DNA of 64,000 bases from Aquabacterium commune (lineage in GTDB: Bacteria; Pseudomonadota; Gammaproteobacteria; Burkholderiales; Burkholderiaceae_C), in NCBI RefSeq assembly GCF_004362855.1, contig NZ_SNXW01000007.1:124001-188000 (forward strand), in the 5' to 3' direction. Below the pieces are notes generated by a model, which was not told where the DNA came from, did not search any database, and saw nothing but the letters and a program-made list of their open reading frames with translations. The position numbers were made by a program, and so were the translations under genes. The stretch's first letter is position 1. The number at the start of each line of letters is the position of its first letter. This document shows positions 1-5,790 of the stretch, piece after piece.

Positions 1-189
1 GCATTCCAAAAACCCAATATTGAATATGTGATCCTGGGGTGCATGGGCATGATCACGAGCACCGCCATGCGGTGGATCGAGCGCGGCTTTTCCGACCCGA
101 TCGACACCGTGGTGGACCACACCCATTACGCGTGGATGGGATTGGATGATTGGATGACGCAAATGAATGCCACGTCAGCACCAGGCTGA
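1..189 (+). CDS. C-terminal end of a probable TetR-family regulator (partial)
   Basis: The window opens inside an open frame (frame 1) whose last 62 codons are present before a TGA at 187-189. The visible peptide contains a helical stretch with MRWIERGFSDPID, resembling the last helices of the ligand-binding domain of TetR/AcrR regulators. The DNA-binding half lies outside the window, so this is an inference from the tail only. Base composition is clearly more AT-rich than the genes further right, as is the next 600 bases. The gene ends 21 bases before a strong hairpin. It could equally be the tail of another all-helical protein. Confidence 0.45.
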   Translation, partial: AFQKPNIEYVILGCMGMITSTAMRWIERGFSDPIDTVVDHTHYAWMGLDDWMTQMNATSAPG

Positions 190-209: not shown

Positions 210-249
210 TGAAAAGGCCGTCGCCTGTTGCCAGGAGACGGCCTTTTCA
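210..249. terminator. Bidirectional intrinsic terminator
   Basis: A perfect 13-bp inverted repeat (210-222 with 237-249) encloses a 14-base loop. One arm reads TGAAAAGGCCGTC, so the stem is GC-rich at its core and ends in A/T runs on both strands. It lies between two converging genes, the TetR-like tail on the plus strand and the small peptide gene on the minus strand, and can stop transcription from both sides. Confidence 0.85.
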
Positions 250-301: not shown

Positions 302-487
302 TCAGGGCGCCTTGGGGAAGCCCAGCAACACGGCGAACGTGTTGTACAGGGGGCGACCGTAGGTGTTCCACTCGTTCTTGTGGATGGCGTCGATCAGGGC
401 GATGCCGGTGGGCTTGAACAGACCCAGTTCGGGGTCCAGGGCGCCGCCGCTGACTTGCTTGATTTCTTGCGTGTTCAGAATTTTCAT
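302..487 (-). CDS. Double-glycine leader peptide, putative bacteriocin (microcin-like) precursor
   Basis: Encodes 61 residues. The first 15, MKILNTQEIKQVSGG, match the double-glycine leaders of class II microcins and class II bacteriocins: hydrophobic residues at -12, -7 and -4 and a GG cleavage site. Cleavage after G15 would release a 46-residue, cysteine-free peptide starting ALDPELG and ending GFPKAP. It holds two hydrophobic, potentially helical stretches (around GIALIDAIH and YNTFAVLLGF) and only a few charges. This ATG was chosen because it places the leader at the N-terminus; the frame is open far upstream but encodes nothing leader-like. The ribosome site is weak (a GGA about 8 bases upstream). 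A C39-peptidase exporter, adaptor and channel start 250 bases away on the opposite strand, the expected processing machinery. Antibacterial activity is inferred; a secreted signal peptide is the main alternative. Confidence 0.72.
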   Translation of the reverse strand: MKILNTQEIKQVSGGALDPELGLFKPTGIALIDAIHKNEWNTYGRPLYNTFAVLLGFPKAP

Positions 488-739
488 GGTTTTGATCCAG
501 TGACAGGTTGATGCGCGGGTTTTGATTAACCCACCATTGAATTTTATTATCGCGCGCCGTTCATCGAAACGGGAATAACCCACAGAATTCAAATCATCAT
601 TCATCTCAGAATGACAGATAGAACAAAACCCCCTGAAAAGGTTAACCAACGGGTTATCACCCCATTTGAATGCGGGGCTCCAAACCCAAATCGTCGCCAT
701 TACCTCCCCGCACAAGCAAGCAAACGAAGCCAGGCTCTC
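488..739. promoter_or_regulatory. Divergent promoter region between peptide gene and exporter operon
   Basis: About 250 bases without a convincing gene, noticeably more AT-rich than the window average, between the minus-strand peptide and the plus-strand exporter genes. On the minus strand a GATAAT hexamer about 70 bases before the peptide start could be a -10 box, with no clear -35. On the plus strand an 8-bp palindrome, GGTTAACC, lies near 640-650. Both promoters must lie here, but neither can be placed with certainty. Confidence 0.4.
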
Positions 740-2320
740 ATGCACCGCGAAACAAATGGCGACAATGAGGGCAGATATTCCGCGACCGCCCCAACCGCCC
801 CTGGCCGACGTCTTGTGCCCCTCGCGCCCCACCCCAGCAGCATCGGCTTGCAGCTTCACGTGTGTGCCGCCGTGATCGTCACCGCGGCGTGCTGGCACAG
901 CGCGCATGCCCTGACCCTGAGCCAGCACCTGAGCTGGCCATCGGCGCCCACCCGCACCTCGCCCGCCACGGCTGAGGTCATGGCGTCCATCGGAGTCCCC
1001 AGCACCCCGCCCACCGCAGCGTCATCACAAGCGGCCACGACATGGGCGGCCCTGCTCGGCGGGCTGGACCAGGCGCCGGGCGTCAAGGAAGCCAAAGCCC
1101 GCGCCGAGGCCAGCCAGGCGATCAGCGAACAAAGCCAGGCCCGGGCGTGGCTGCCCCGGGTGGACGCCAGCGTGCGCACCGACGAGCAACGCCAGCGCTA
1201 CAACGGCCTGGCCACCCGCACCCCCAGTTCGGCCAGCACGCTGCAGGCCACCTTGCCGCTGTGGCGACCGGCAGACCGCGCCAACGCGCGCGCCGATGAC
1301 GCCGTCGCCGAGCAGGCGCAATGGCAAGCCAGCCTGCGCAGGCAATCGCTGGCGCGGGAACTGAGCCAGAGCTACCTGTCGGCTGTGGAAGCCGCCGAGC
1401 AAACCCGCCTGACCCGCGCATACCTGGCCGCCCTGGAGCAGCAAGCGCGCGCACACCAGAAAAGGCTGCAGGCCGGCCTGGGCACGGTGCTGGACGCCCT
1501 GGAGACGCGCGCGCGCCAGGAGCAGGCGCTGGCCCAATCAGAGCAGCTGTTGTCCCGCCTGTGCTCCCTGACGCTGACCTTGAACCGCCTCAGCGGCATG
1601 CCCGCGGCCCCGCCCGATGGCCTGAACCCGCACAGCCCTGAGGACCCCGACGTGACGTTGCCGCCTTTGCAGGACGCCACCGCGCAAGCGCTGTCCAGCC
1701 ATCCCGAGGTTCTGGACGCCCGAGCCGGCGTGCGCGGCAGCCTGGAAACCATCCGCGCGCGCGATGCCGAGCGCTGGCAACCCACGCTGGATGCCACTGC
1801 CGGACACAGCCGCACCCGCCAGACGCAACGCTTCGAGGGGCAGAGCGACCGCCAGGACATCCGCACCGAGGCCGTCGGGCTGGTGCTGAACTGGCCCCTG
1901 TTCAGCTCGGGGTTTCAACAAGCGCGCCAGCGCGAGGCCGCCGCTTTGCTCAGTGCCGCGCAGGCCCGTCTTGACGATGCCGAAGCGCGCGTGGCCACCG
2001 AGCTGCAGGATGCCTACCAGCGCCACGAGCAAGCACGGCGCCAGCAAGCCCGCCAGGAGGCCGTCGTGGCGAGCACACAGGCCACCCTGGACGCCGTGCA
2101 GAAGGCCTGGCTGGCGGGGCTGCGCGGCACCACCGAGCTGCTGGACGCCCAGCAACGCCTGCACAACGCGCGCATGGCCCACGCCAGCGCCCGGGTGGCC
2201 ACCTTGCAGGCCGGCAGCGACGCCCTGGCCCTGCTGGGCCTGCTCGACGCCACGCACATCGCCCCGTGGCTCGGCCTGTTCGACGCGGCATCCACCTCCT
2301 TCGCCCCCTCGTCACCATGA
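740..2320 (+). CDS. TolC-family outer membrane channel of a type I exporter
   Basis: Outer membrane efflux protein that would form the exit duct for the adaptor and ABC exporter encoded just downstream. Long Ala/Gln/Arg-rich amphipathic helices occupy most of the protein and fall into two similar halves, as in the TolC fold; conserved-looking stretches include LNRLSGM and TTELLDAQQRLHNAR. A hydrophobic signal-like stretch (LHVCAAVIVTAACW) ends in AHA. The start is uncertain. ATG at 740 has an AGG a few bases upstream and gives 526 residues but leaves the signal about 40 residues in. A GTG at 815 would give an ordinary 32-residue signal peptide but has no ribosome site. The frame also opens at 611. 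The stop overlaps the next start as ATGA, indicating translational coupling. Confidence 0.82.
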   Translation: MHRETNGDNEGRYSATAPTAPGRRLVPLAPHPSSIGLQLHVCAAVIVTAACWHSAHALTLSQHLSWPSAPTRTSPATAEVMASIGVPSTPPTAASSQAATTWAALLGGLDQAPGVKEAKARAEASQAISEQSQARAWLPRVDASVRTDEQRQRYNGLATRTPSSASTLQATLPLWRPADRANARADDAVAEQAQWQASLRRQSLARELSQSYLSAVEAAEQTRLTRAYLAALEQQARAHQKRLQAGLGTVLDALETRARQEQALAQSEQLLSRLCSLTLTLNRLSGMPAAPPDGLNPHSPEDPDVTLPPLQDATAQALSSHPEVLDARAGVRGSLETIRARDAERWQPTLDATAGHSRTRQTQRFEGQSDRQDIRTEAVGLVLNWPLFSSGFQQARQREAAALLSAAQARLDDAEARVATELQDAYQRHEQARRQQARQEAVVASTQATLDAVQKAWLAGLRGTTELLDAQQRLHNARMAHASARVATLQAGSDALALLGLLDATHIAPWLGLFDAASTSFAPSSP

Positions 2321-3576
2321 GCACCCCACCCGACGACACCCCCCTTTTCCGGCCCGAGGTGCTGCACGCCCGCAGCCATACCTCGGACGGCGCACCGCTG
2401 CACATCCAGCCCGTGGGCGGTGGCGCGCTCACGCTGTTCGCCGCGGCGCTGTGCCTGATCGTGGTGCTGGTGCTGGCCTTCGGGCAGCACACCAAGAAGG
2501 AGCGCGTGCAAGGCAGCCTGCAGCCGCGCAACGGCGTGGCCCAGGTCGCCCCCGGCGACACCGCCGTGCTGCAGCGCCTGCGGGTGCAGGAGGGCCAGCG
2601 CGTGCAGGCCGGCGAGGTGCTTGCCGAGCTGCGCCAGGACCGCTTCACCGACGGCGGCAGCGCCTCCGGGCAGATCGAGTCGAGCCTGCAAGGCCAGCGC
2701 GAGCGCATCGCCGACCAATCGGAAGGCCAGGCCCAGGCCCTGCGCGCCCAGCTCGACGCCCTGAACCAGCGCGTCCTGCGCCACCAGCAAGACGCCCAGT
2801 CGCTGCAGACCGACATCGCGCTGCAACAGGAACAGATGGCCTCGGTGCGCAAGCTGCTCGACCAGATGACCCCGCTGCTGGAAGAGCGCATCGTCTCGCA
2901 GGTGCAGTACGAGCAACAGCGCCAGGCCCTGCTGGACCACACCGCGCGCCTGCAAGGTCTGCAGCGCCAGCTGGGCTCGGCGCGCAGCGAGCTGACCCAG
3001 GCCCGCCAGGAACAATCGCGCCTGCAGGCCGAGCACCGCGTCAGCCAGGCCAGCCTGGAGCGCGACCGCCTGTCGCTGCAGCGCGAGTCGGTGCAGCAGC
3101 GCAGCCAGCAGCTGGCCTGGCTCAAAGCCCCCGTCAGCGGCACCGTGACCGGGCTGCAAGCCGGCGTCGGCCAGGCGGTGGCCGCAGGCGCGCCGGTGCT
3201 GAGCATCGTGCCCGACGACTCACCGCTCGAAGCCGTGCTGCACGTGCCCAGCACCGCCATGGGCTTCATCCGCGCCGGCCAGGTCGTGCGCATCGCCTAC
3301 GACGCCTTCCCCTACCAGCGCTTCGGCCAGCACCGGGGCGTGGTGCGCTCGGTGTCGCAGTCCGATGTGCCGCCGCCACCCGGCGCGGCCGAACGGGGCG
3401 ACCGCCGCGCCGTCTTCCAAGTGCGCGTGACGCTGGAGCGCAGCAGTGTGCGCGCCTACGACACCGACATCGCCCTGCGCCCGGGCCACACGCTGAGCGC
3501 CGACATCGAGCTCGACCGCCGCTCGCTGCTGCGCTGGATGCTCGACCCGCTGTTCGCCTTCAGTGGCCGCCTCTGA
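2317..3576 (+). CDS. HlyD/CvaA-type membrane fusion protein
   Basis: Periplasmic adaptor joining the inner-membrane exporter to the outer-membrane channel. The 419-residue product has a short cytoplasmic N-terminus, one transmembrane helix at about residues 37-56 and a lipoyl/biotinyl half-motif (VAPGDTAVLQRLRVQEGQ). A long Gln-rich coiled coil spans roughly residues 110-270. The second lipoyl half (LKAPVSGTVTGLQAGVGQ) and a beta-barrel C-terminal domain follow. The layout matches the CvaA adaptor of colicin V export. The ATG overlaps the stop of the channel gene (ATGA) and the stop lies 12 bases before the ABC gene, so the three are one operon. Confidence 0.9.
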   Translation: MSTPPDDTPLFRPEVLHARSHTSDGAPLHIQPVGGGALTLFAAALCLIVVLVLAFGQHTKKERVQGSLQPRNGVAQVAPGDTAVLQRLRVQEGQRVQAGEVLAELRQDRFTDGGSASGQIESSLQGQRERIADQSEGQAQALRAQLDALNQRVLRHQQDAQSLQTDIALQQEQMASVRKLLDQMTPLLEERIVSQVQYEQQRQALLDHTARLQGLQRQLGSARSELTQARQEQSRLQAEHRVSQASLERDRLSLQRESVQQRSQQLAWLKAPVSGTVTGLQAGVGQAVAAGAPVLSIVPDDSPLEAVLHVPSTAMGFIRAGQVVRIAYDAFPYQRFGQHRGVVRSVSQSDVPPPPGAAERGDRRAVFQVRVTLERSSVRAYDTDIALRPGHTLSADIELDRRSLLRWMLDPLFAFSGRL

Positions 3577-3588
3577 CCCCCGACCGCC

Positions 3589-5790
3589 ATGGCCGCCACC
3601 TCTGCCTCATCGCCCAACACCTTCAGCCCCTTCACGCTGTGGCCGCGCCAGCGCGTGCCCCTGGTCCTGCAGTCCGAAGCCGCCGAGTGCGGGCTGGCCT
3701 GCCTGGCCATGGTCGCTGGCGCCCACGGGCTCGACACCGACCTGCCCAGCCTGCGCCAGCGCTTCGAGCTGTCGTCGCGCGGGGCGACGCTGGCCCAGCT
3801 CATGGACATCGCCGAGCAGATGGGCCTGTCCAACCGCGCGGTGCGCCTGGAGCTGCAAGAGCTGCCCGAGCTGCGCACGCCCTGCCTGCTGCACTGGGAC
3901 CTCAACCACTTCGTGGTGCTGGTGCAGGCCGACGCGCGGCACATCACCGTGCACGACCCGGCCCTGGGCGAGCGCAAGCTGACGCTCAAGGAGGCCAGCC
4001 CGCACTTCACTGGCGTGGCGCTGGAGCTGGCGCCCGCACCGGGCTTTCGGCCGCGCAAAGAGCGCAGCGACTGGAAGCTGCGTTCGCTCTTCAAGGGCCA
4101 GCCCGGCCTGTGGCGGGCCTTCTCTCAGATGGCCGTGCTCTCGCTGGTGCTGGAGGTCTTTGCCATCCTCATGCCGATGCTGAGCCAGTGGGTGATCGAC
4201 GACGTCATCGTCAGCCGTGACACGCCGCTGCTGGCGGTGCTGGCGACCTCGCTGGGCCTGCTGGCACTGATGTCGCTGCTGACGCGGCTGATGCGCAGCT
4301 GGGTCGTGCTGGGCACCAGCCTGAGCTGGAAGCTCAACAGCAGCACGCAGGTCTTTCGCCACCTCATCCGCCTGCCGCTGTCCTACTTCGACAAGCGCCA
4401 CACGGGCGACGTCATGTCGCGTTTCGCATCGGTCGACACCATCCAGGACACGCTCACGCGCGAGCTGGTCGAAGCCGTGCTCGACGGCATGGTCAGCCTG
4501 GTCACGCTGGGCCTGATGTTCGCCTACAGCCCGAAGCTGGCGGCCATCGTCATGGGCGTGGCCACGCTGTACCTGCTGGTGCGGCTGGCCGTGTTCGGGC
4601 CCTTCCGGCGGGCCTCGGAAGAGCTCATCGTGCGCGAGGCGCAGGCGCAGACCTTCCTGATGGAGACGCTGCGCGGCATGAACGCCATCAAGTTCTTCTC
4701 GCGACCCGGCTGGCGCGTGGCAGGCTGGATGAACCAGCAGGCCAGCATGGTCAACGCGCGCGTCAAGCAAGAGCGCATCAACCTGCTGCACCAGGGCGTC
4801 AACGGCGTGATTGGCGCCATCGAGCAGGCGCTGGTGCTTTACCTGGCCGCGCAGATGATCATCGCCGAGCAGTTCTCCATCGGCATGCTGGTGGCCTTCA
4901 TGGCCTACAAGGGGCAGTTCCTGCAGCGCGCCAACGACCTCATCGAGCGCGTCATCAGCCTGCGCCTGCTGCGCCTGCAGGGCGACCGGCTGGCCGACAT
5001 CGTGCTCACGCCGACCGAGCCCGCCTCGCCCGCTCAGGCGGGGCACCGGGCGGGTCTGCAGGCGGCAGATCCCACGCCCATGACCCTGAGCCTGCGTGAC
5101 GTCGTCTTCCGCTACGCGCGCGACGAGGCCCCTGTGCTCGACCACGTCAGCCTGACCCTGCACACCGGGCAGGCGCTGGCCGTGCTCGGCCCCTCAGGCT
5201 GTGGCAAGTCCACGCTGATGAAGATCCTGTGCGGCCAGGTCACGCCCGAGGCGGGCGAGGTGCTGCTCAACGGCGTGCCCATGGCCTCGCTGGGCGCCGA
5301 AGCCTTCCGCTCGGTGCTGGGCACCGTCTTCCAGGACGACCAGCTGTTCTCGTGCAGCATCCACGACAACATCGCCATGAACGACGCCGAGGCGAGTGCC
5401 GAGAAGGTCGAAGCCGCGGCCGCCCTGGCCTGCGTGCACGAGGACATCGCACGCATGCCCATGGGCTACCAGACGCTGGTGGGCAGCATGGGCGCGACGC
5501 TCTCGGGCGGGCAAAAGCAGCGCATCCTGCTGGCGCGCGCGCTCTACAAGCGGCCGCGCTTCCTGCTGCTGGACGAGTACACCAGCCACCTGGACTTCGC
5601 CACCGAAAAACGCGTGCAGGACGCCATCAACGCCCTGGGTTGCGGGCGCTTCATCATCACGCACCGCGAACATTCGCTGCGCGAGGGCGACGAGGTTCGC
5701 GTGCTGTCGCAGGGGCAGCTGGTCGATCCACAGCACCTGGCAGGGCCCGAGAATGCGCCGCACGCCCCTCAGACGCCGCCACAGGGTTGA
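3589..5790 (+). CDS. Peptidase-containing ABC exporter (C39 peptidase, CvaB-like)
   Basis: A 733-residue bifunctional exporter that cuts the double-glycine leader and pumps the peptide out. The N-terminal C39 domain is intact: oxyanion Gln28, catalytic Cys34 (AAECGLACLA), His107 (LNHFVVL) and Asp123 (VHDP). A membrane domain with about six helices covers residues 175-450. The nucleotide-binding domain follows, with Walker A GPSGCGKST (about 534-542), signature LSGGQKQR (about 638), Walker B LLLDEY (about 659) and the switch His in ITHRE (about 689). Domain order and length match CvaB and other bacteriocin exporters. It ends one base before the stop of a convergent hydrolase gene. The only double-glycine peptide visible nearby is the one at 302-487. 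Confidence 0.95.
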   Translation: MAATSASSPNTFSPFTLWPRQRVPLVLQSEAAECGLACLAMVAGAHGLDTDLPSLRQRFELSSRGATLAQLMDIAEQMGLSNRAVRLELQELPELRTPCLLHWDLNHFVVLVQADARHITVHDPALGERKLTLKEASPHFTGVALELAPAPGFRPRKERSDWKLRSLFKGQPGLWRAFSQMAVLSLVLEVFAILMPMLSQWVIDDVIVSRDTPLLAVLATSLGLLALMSLLTRLMRSWVVLGTSLSWKLNSSTQVFRHLIRLPLSYFDKRHTGDVMSRFASVDTIQDTLTRELVEAVLDGMVSLVTLGLMFAYSPKLAAIVMGVATLYLLVRLAVFGPFRRASEELIVREAQAQTFLMETLRGMNAIKFFSRPGWRVAGWMNQQASMVNARVKQERINLLHQGVNGVIGAIEQALVLYLAAQMIIAEQFSIGMLVAFMAYKGQFLQRANDLIERVISLRLLRLQGDRLADIVLTPTEPASPAQAGHRAGLQAADPTPMTLSLRDVVFRYARDEAPVLDHVSLTLHTGQALAVLGPSGCGKSTLMKILCGQVTPEAGEVLLNGVPMASLGAEAFRSVLGTVFQDDQLFSCSIHDNIAMNDAEASAEKVEAAAALACVHEDIARMPMGYQTLVGSMGATLSGGQKQRILLARALYKRPRFLLLDEYTSHLDFATEKRVQDAINALGCGRFIITHREHSLREGDEVRVLSQGQLVDPQHLAGPENAPHAPQTPPQG

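Follow-up and report, generated by a model that had tools for sequence, protein, structure and literature searches.

A conserved double-glycine leader peptide beside a C39 peptidase exporter in Aquabacterium commune, a putative bacteriocin-like factor

The window analyzed here is a 64-kb stretch of the Aquabacterium commune genome (G000:C7:124001-188000), which comprises 4.2 Mb in 39 contigs; below, G-numbers denote the genomes compared, G000 being that of the window, and L-numbers the loci read. At the beginning of the window, a gene for a small precursor with a double-glycine (GG) leader faces away from three genes that would make up a dedicated type I export system secreting one small peptide. 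The main features, in coordinates of the window, are as follows.

302..487, minus strand: GG-leader peptide precursor of 61 residues (coordinates with the stop codon), identified as an open reading frame (ORF) with homologues and conservation.
443..487, minus strand: leader MKILNTQEIKQVSGG with a predicted cut after Gly15, from the sequence and the leader profile.
305..442, minus strand: mature 46-residue peptide, described by computed properties and a predicted structure.
611..2320, plus strand: TolC-type outer membrane channel (OEP (TolC) Pfam domain, E = 1e-42), with a likely, inferred start at 740.
2317..3576, plus strand: HlyD/CvaA-type periplasmic adaptor (HlyD_3, E = 6.5e-18), whose ATG is codon 18 of the ORF opening at 2266.
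3589..5790, plus strand: C39-peptidase ATP-binding cassette (ABC) exporter of 733 residues (Peptidase_C39, E = 1.1e-33, with ABC membrane and ATPase domains).

As can be seen, the precursor, MKILNTQEIKQVSGG followed by ALDPELGLFKPTGIALIDAIHKNEWNTYGRPLYNTFAVLLGFPKAP, consists of a 15-residue GG leader and a 46-residue mature part devoid of cysteines, just as a first-pass annotation of the window had described it. The computed net charge of the mature peptide (K+R minus D+E) is 0 and its monoisotopic mass is 5080.72. The open frame in G000 continues 5′ of the peptide ATG (302-928, GTG start). Since the same frame is shorter (64-152 codons) in the eight other genomes of what we call type A (nine genomes of the genus in which the stop-free peptide frame is 75-100% identical), and the DNA upstream of the peptide is poorly conserved among them, translation probably starts at the ATG at 487. 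A helix is predicted for residues 30-55 of the precursor (best model pLDDT, the predicted local distance difference test score, 87; other four 68-81). The model found no fold match in the PDB (best E 3.9), and a PDB sequence search with the peptide returned nothing better than E = 0.16; the predicted structure and the PDB comparison give no functional hint.

The TolC-like channel, CvaA-like adaptor and CvaB-like exporter named in the first-pass annotation are confirmed by the Pfam domains listed above. The C39 residues Gln28, Cys34, His107 and Asp123 of the exporter, which had been noted as intact, are indeed so and are identical in 24 of the 25 other exporters aligned; the 25th, the second exporter of G011, is without the Q/C stretch in its aligned piece. 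That piece (L103 7385-9238) is short of about 55 C39 residues including Gln and Cys, a gap that may be due to a deletion, a frameshift or an assembly fault. Full-length exporter relatives with solved structures include HlyB, a bacteriocin transporter (4ry2, which we take to be PCAT1) and ComA. None of the three, exporter, adaptor or channel, reaches the curated cut-off of any NCBIfam model listed (for the exporter, the best 25 of 197); adaptor and channel fall under those of TIGR01843 and TIGR01844, and the exporter reaches 494 bits against the cut-off of 853 for the NHLP bacteriocin exporter (TIGR03796). The distance of 250 bases given earlier between peptide and channel genes holds if the latter starts at the in-frame ATG at 740, whereas the longest ORF starts at 611, 123 bases away.

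Taking at least 70% identity as presence, we found the exporter in 25 of the 42 genus genomes searched (G041 has a fragment only, G011 has two). Peptides of the family are encoded in 18 genomes, 17 of which carry the exporter; the exception, G039, is 53% complete. A leader profile of 18 positions was built from 25 peptides, with rows taken from exporter or peptide loci of 19 genomes. At E ≤ 0.01 this profile matched 39 places in 26 genomes, that is, in all 25 exporter genomes and, among the 17 others, in G039 only (Fisher p = 1e-10, kinship not corrected). Presence is partly built into this result, most exporter genomes having contributed profile rows; absence from 16 of 17 genomes is free of that choice. 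All six exporter genomes without a profile row (G014, G015, G017, G023, G031 and G032), some of them close kin of those with rows, were matched. Matches at E ≤ 1 in four exporter-less genomes (G005, G006, G037 and G040; E 0.34-0.66, 242-292 residues) were taken as chance. In G000, the peptide is the sole match at E ≤ 0.01, the second (E = 0.465) lying within a 1188-residue frame.

The conserved pairing of peptide and exporter that had been proposed as a check is thus borne out, and so is, by domains, catalytic residues and leader co-occurrence, the description of the locus as an export island with a GG leader and an intact C39 exporter. The stricter expectation that this peptide is kept wherever the exporter is kept holds for 17 of the 25 exporter genomes; the other eight yielded only other GG peptides. 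The prediction, from sequence, that this machine exports this peptide has good support.

What the exporter carries differs between genomes. The surroundings of 25 exporter loci were inspected, G011 contributing two and the fragment in G041 none; the loci of G017 and G019 start at the edge of a contig. Of the 23 with a readable flank, 21 have a neighbouring GG peptide, and at those of G003 and G015 the leader expression found none. By eye, the cargos were sorted into types A (seven loci), A2 (four), B (four), D (two), E (two), C (one) and F (one). A and A2 are related, which leaves six cargo types that look alike, by eye, in the leader only; the family profile likewise met type B in its leader only. 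Placed on the exporter tree, the cargo labels require nine changes, where eight is the least possible, against a mean of 16.7 for shuffled labels, with 0 of 200 shuffles as low (nine labels, including “none” and an outgroup; a quick tree with 8 of 23 inner branches weak). The cargo appears to follow the exporter clade, the leader tying peptide to exporter and the cargo behind it differing between clades.

The locus, called self-contained in the first-pass annotation, is so in G000 but not in relatives, where family peptides also sit away from the exporter: on other contigs in G003 and G015, about 30 kb off in G007 and G001, and as second copies in G038 and G032. GG peptides with a similar leader and mature parts unlike type A were also seen off the exporter as tandem pairs in G019 (L119 1235-1671) and G003 (L129 1025-1548, identical copies) and singly in G034 (L128 1363-1548) and G007 (L127 1501-1617). 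Further leader-bearing matches lie at G041:C58 and G039:C334, and a second one at G011:C91. GG-leader-like frames also lie near more distant exporters, of about 45% identity, from Rhodoferax, Rhodobacter and G012 (L010 6303-6638, L015 6530-6706 and L108 3489-3635).

A single-sequence search with the precursor retrieved 22 relatives at E ≤ 1 (among 22 candidates), and a profile search 110 at E ≤ 0.1 (among 186). The 18 genus genomes with the family at E ≤ 0.01 comprise the nine of type A, one intermediate (G041, 50% identity) and eight with the shorter relative A2, whose sequence begins ESLIDAIHRAEYNSYGVPL. The conserved core is IDxIHxxEWxxYGxPL: (I/L/V)DxIHxxE(W/Y) is present in 107 of 111 sequences, query included, IHxxE(W/Y)xxYG in 104, and xPL in addition in 84. 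C-terminal tails vary (TFAVLLGFPKAP, FGWLVK, YLYAAGTYAVGLLGSKDTSPAT and NAGIFAYNLFATTK).

The remark that the peptide resembles no recognized microcin stands, no described peptide family being reached above cut-off. This applies to the precursor itself in Pfam and NCBIfam, and of ten further sequences, eight from the family and two other cargos, none matched a Pfam family at E ≤ 1 or passed an NCBIfam cut-off. Among known microcin and bacteriocin models, only TIGR03949 was matched by the precursor, in the leader and below cut-off (12.6 bits against 21.5, E = 0.088); two of the ten others match it in the leader too, also below cut-off. The type B cargo matches the E492 microcin model weakly (13.6 bits, cut-off 50), and a sub-cut-off match of one member to sulfoacetaldehyde acetyltransferase models was taken as chance.

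Beyond the genus, samples of 399 genomes of the order and 398 of the phylum gave no match at E ≤ 0.001. Among 399 genomes of the taxonomic family, matches came from three of the genus and two weak ones, G302 and G220 (E 0.005 and 0.009, frames of 356 and 1190 residues), which were taken as chance. Relatives in protein collections name Aquabacterium as source, with single entries for Leptothrix, Rubrivivax and Pseudomonadota, and most name no host. As far as these sequence collections go, the family is seen in a single genus, which most named relatives identify as Aquabacterium. Carriage on plasmids or phages was rejected: P0001 had no match in plasmids or phages, and P0108 none in plasmids. 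Aquabacterium is not mentioned among the matches listed from a full-text literature search, and five short fragments of mature peptides were found nowhere in the literature searched; neither result is proof of absence from print.

Across the nine type A genomes (36 pairs), the pooled ratio of nonsynonymous to synonymous differences (pN/pS) is 0.19 for the mature part and 0.53 for the leader, which points to purifying selection on the mature part. Against G000, precursor pN is 0.015-0.090 in seven pairs and 0.169 for G003. It is lower than that of the TolC and TetR genes in all eight pairs, and lower in seven of eight than that of the exporter and HlyD genes (exception G017, for each) and of a neighbouring acyl-CoA dehydrogenase gene (exception G003); exporter pN comes close for G009 and G014 (0.024 and 0.020 against 0.015). 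Low synonymous divergence was not accepted as a sign of horizontal transfer of the peptide gene, since dehydrogenase pS is similarly low despite many amino-acid changes; codon bias may explain it. These data also bear on the view that the frame arose by chance or is a relic, the exporter serving other substrates, with which the failure to find the family in 8 of 25 exporter genomes would agree. A chance ORF is ruled out by homologues (E down to 3.5e-33 in the single-sequence search), by a frame free of stops in nine of nine type A genomes and by the pN/pS of 0.19; given also that it is the one leader match at E ≤ 0.01 in G000, we consider that view very improbable.

Around the system, three further features were recorded.

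1..189, plus strand: end of a TetR-family regulator gene, a convergent neighbour not judged part of the system.
210..249, no strand: inverted repeat with 18-nt arms, a 4-nt loop and A/T-rich ends, likely a two-way terminator between the TetR and peptide genes.
488..739, no strand: divergent region with the presumed promoters of peptide and exporter, a GGTTAACC element and one weak promoter-like match.

The GGTTAACC-like element lies at 640-650, with looser copies at 524 and 573, and occurs upstream of the peptide in the five closest genomes (G000, G009, G014, G017 and G025). Segment 195-305 has a z-score of -7.8 and includes a second hairpin beside that at 210-249; a simple terminator scan did not report the latter and listed another, within chance. 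The peptide gene stands alone between the strong hairpin and the exporter, and because of this inverted repeat its transcript probably holds one gene only. TetR and acyl-CoA dehydrogenase genes adjoin the peptide in all nine type A genomes, including G003, whose exporter is on another contig. Since G018, which has neither an exporter nor a peptide match, keeps the dehydrogenase gene beside a TetR gene of 38% identity, the TetR of the window probably belongs with the dehydrogenase gene beyond the window, and a dedicated regulator was judged unlikely. In favour of a link to the peptide, TetR relatives in the type A genomes are closer (41-100%) than in most others; relatives of 46-48% occur in three genomes that have no type A. 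Outside the window, at L026 7244-9350 (window -4756 to -2650), we observed a gene for an MbnB/TglH/ChrH-type enzyme of ribosomally synthesized and post-translationally modified peptides (PF05114, E = 1.2e-107) with one for a DUF2063 protein, adjoined by a 97-residue cysteine-rich frame without a Pfam match. This cluster resembles a bufferin-type one, its precursor being judged by eye.

For an immunity gene, we compared 72 frames of 35-300 codons within 3 kb in G000 with the eight other type A loci, judging by conservation and hydrophobicity only (the 222-residue TetR gene would pass a screen on length). Every hydrophobic or conserved frame near the peptide overlaps the peptide gene, its antisense, or the TolC, HlyD, TetR or dehydrogenase genes. 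An antisense frame of 46 residues (363-503, plus strand) with a hydrophobic stretch is alike in seven of the eight other type A loci and is probably no more than the shadow that the conserved peptide gene casts on the other strand. When the scan was widened and run by cargo group, no better candidate emerged, the first two loci per group being viewed and groups B to F being small.

These results concern the possibility that this is a classical class II microcin, with an immunity gene that is located elsewhere in the genome or went unrecognized. Its export features are present, immunity proteins have little sequence in common and are difficult to detect by homology (PMC9746304), and the antisense frame, unless a mere shadow, could be counted for it. 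Immunity genes are, however, described as lying near the microcin (PMC9746304), and the flanks here, the antisense shadow aside, hold only TetR, acyl-CoA dehydrogenase and exporter genes; we regard this possibility as improbable. The microcin-like reading in the first-pass annotation is right for leader, exporter, adaptor and channel, but no immunity candidate and no microcin-model match above cut-off accompany them. It is further weakened by the conservation of the mature part, since the core peptides of microcins have been described as highly variable (PMC9746304). On this comparison the microcin label is not earned, and antibacterial activity is putative.

C39 exporters bind the leader, cut after GG or GA and export the peptide via an adaptor and TolC. 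On the genes, catalytic residues, conservation and leader-exporter co-occurrence observed here we base the following model, in which export, cleavage site and activity are inferred. The C39 domain would recognize the leader and cut after Gly15, and the exporter-adaptor-TolC assembly would release the mature peptide, 46 residues long, of net charge 0 and predicted to form one long helix. With a probability of about 0.5, this peptide is bacteriocin-like and targets related bacteria while, like bacteroidetocins, lacking a linked immunity protein. The replacement of cargos and the variable tails attached to a conserved core would fit antagonistic peptides, and hybrid domain make-up has been described for class II microcins (PMC13174018). 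The weak type B match to the E492 microcin model and the constraint on the mature part were counted in the same direction.

Several observations weigh against antagonism. Beside type A loci, no small frame that is separate, conserved and hydrophobic qualifies as an immunity candidate, the antisense frame 363-503 remaining. The mature sequence is near-constant at one chromosomal site with dehydrogenase and TetR neighbours in nine of nine type A genomes, a pattern that resembles long vertical inheritance more than a weapon of patchy occurrence. The peptide has net charge 0, unlike the cationic Neisseria Nap peptides and bacteroidetocins, although low charge is described as a tendency of class II bacteriocins (PMC12648078), and, unlike bacteroidetocins, no cysteines. 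Its expression and secretion are predictions from sequence.

The peptide, released by the same exporter, might instead act on its own population, be it as a signal, within the biofilm or matrix, or in controlled lysis; we consider this a serious though tentative possibility. The low precursor pN relative to the neighbouring genes, the fixed site and the lack of an immunity candidate beside type A loci would suit such a role. Precedents are the EbfG peptides, which need a C39 transporter for their biofilm role (PMC4997328), and the Nap peptides, which act in autolysis and for which no antimicrobial activity was detected (PMC11798529). Lone A2 copies, read at L085, L091 and L098 (phoH- and ybeY-like genes nearby, by eye), offer leads for a communal role of A2. 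According to Pfam, the peptide in L091 (3814-9613) is preceded by a homocysteine S-methyltransferase gene and followed by an EAL-domain gene, with an MHYT-GGDEF-EAL gene one gene further upstream (L091 only); frames like these cyclic di-GMP (c-di-GMP)-type neighbours occur in L087, L106 and L081. In L085 (10965-13172), a 736-residue frame with a histidine-kinase-type ATPase domain and a membrane-like N-terminal half (by eye) lies 2.7-4.9 kb from the lone A2 and has similar frames in L081 and L091. A link of lone A2 genes to c-di-GMP control is possible, and these neighbours, too, lean away from antagonism toward a communal role; they belong, however, to lone A2 copies and not to the window. 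Among the neighbours of type A genes, none was conspicuous as a receptor or sensor gene, and the replacement of the peptide at the same exporter site by cargos alike only in the leader is odd for one communal role. The broader proposal, in which one exporter serves shared-leader peptides scattered genus-wide and the IDxIHxxEWxxYG family is long-kept and self-directed (signal, surface or population control) and no weapon, we find somewhat doubtful. Because bacteroidetocins show that killing is possible without an immunity protein (PMC10233263, with PMC6671954 and PMC8546649), we keep antagonism slightly ahead of a self-directed role.

The locus makes one exporter lineage, its leader and six peptide types comparable across one betaproteobacterial genus, so that leader-exporter matching and cargo replacement become testable. 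A conserved peptide without a linked immunity candidate tests whether Gram-negative GG peptides are weapons by default; a self-directed role, if true, would mean a conserved peptide-based intercellular factor in a Gram-negative genus.

Among known systems, the class II microcins of Enterobacteriaceae exported by CvaA/CvaB/TolC, such as microcin V, share with the system described here a GG (or GA) leader on a small precursor, a HlyD-type adaptor, a TolC-type channel, a C39 ABC exporter with the same catalytic residues (Cys32/His105/Asp121 in CvaB; PMC9746304) and a mature peptide under 10 kDa. The present system differs in having its own TolC-type gene in the cluster, no linked immunity candidate beside the peptide (antisense frame aside) and a peptide conserved across species that reaches no Pfam or NCBIfam cut-off. 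Bacteroidetocins resemble it in a 15-16 residue leader cut after GG, a 42-residue mature peptide and a C39 ABC exporter (PMC6671954, PMC8546649, PMC10233263). According to PMC10233263 they have no immunity protein, and none was found beside the peptide here, as judged by conservation and hydrophobicity. They kill relatives, and tested producers are sensitive to their own peptide; they also have at least two cysteines, an adjoining transmembrane (TM)-protein gene and usually a thiol oxidoreductase gene (PMC10233263, PMC6671954, PMC8546649). Here the mature peptide has no cysteine, and the neighbours identified include no TM-protein or thiol oxidoreductase gene.

Neisseria is a betaproteobacterium. 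Its Nap island likewise combines GG peptides with a C39 peptidase, but encodes three cationic peptides together with NapF, a channel resembling FapF, the regulator NapR and the immunity protein NapI (PMC11798529), in contrast to one uncharged peptide (the one leader match at E ≤ 0.01), a TolC-type channel and no immunity candidate here. The EbfG peptides of Synechococcus, which need the C39 peptidase transporter PteB, are similar GG peptides; they are cyanobacterial, and their biofilm role was shown by mutants (PMC4997328), whereas the present system is known from its genes. Because predictions of class II bacteriocin candidates across Pseudomonadota exist already (PMC12648078), what the sequences describe is an undescribed peptide family within a known kind of system, in which the apparatus is ordinary and the peptide family and its conservation are less so.

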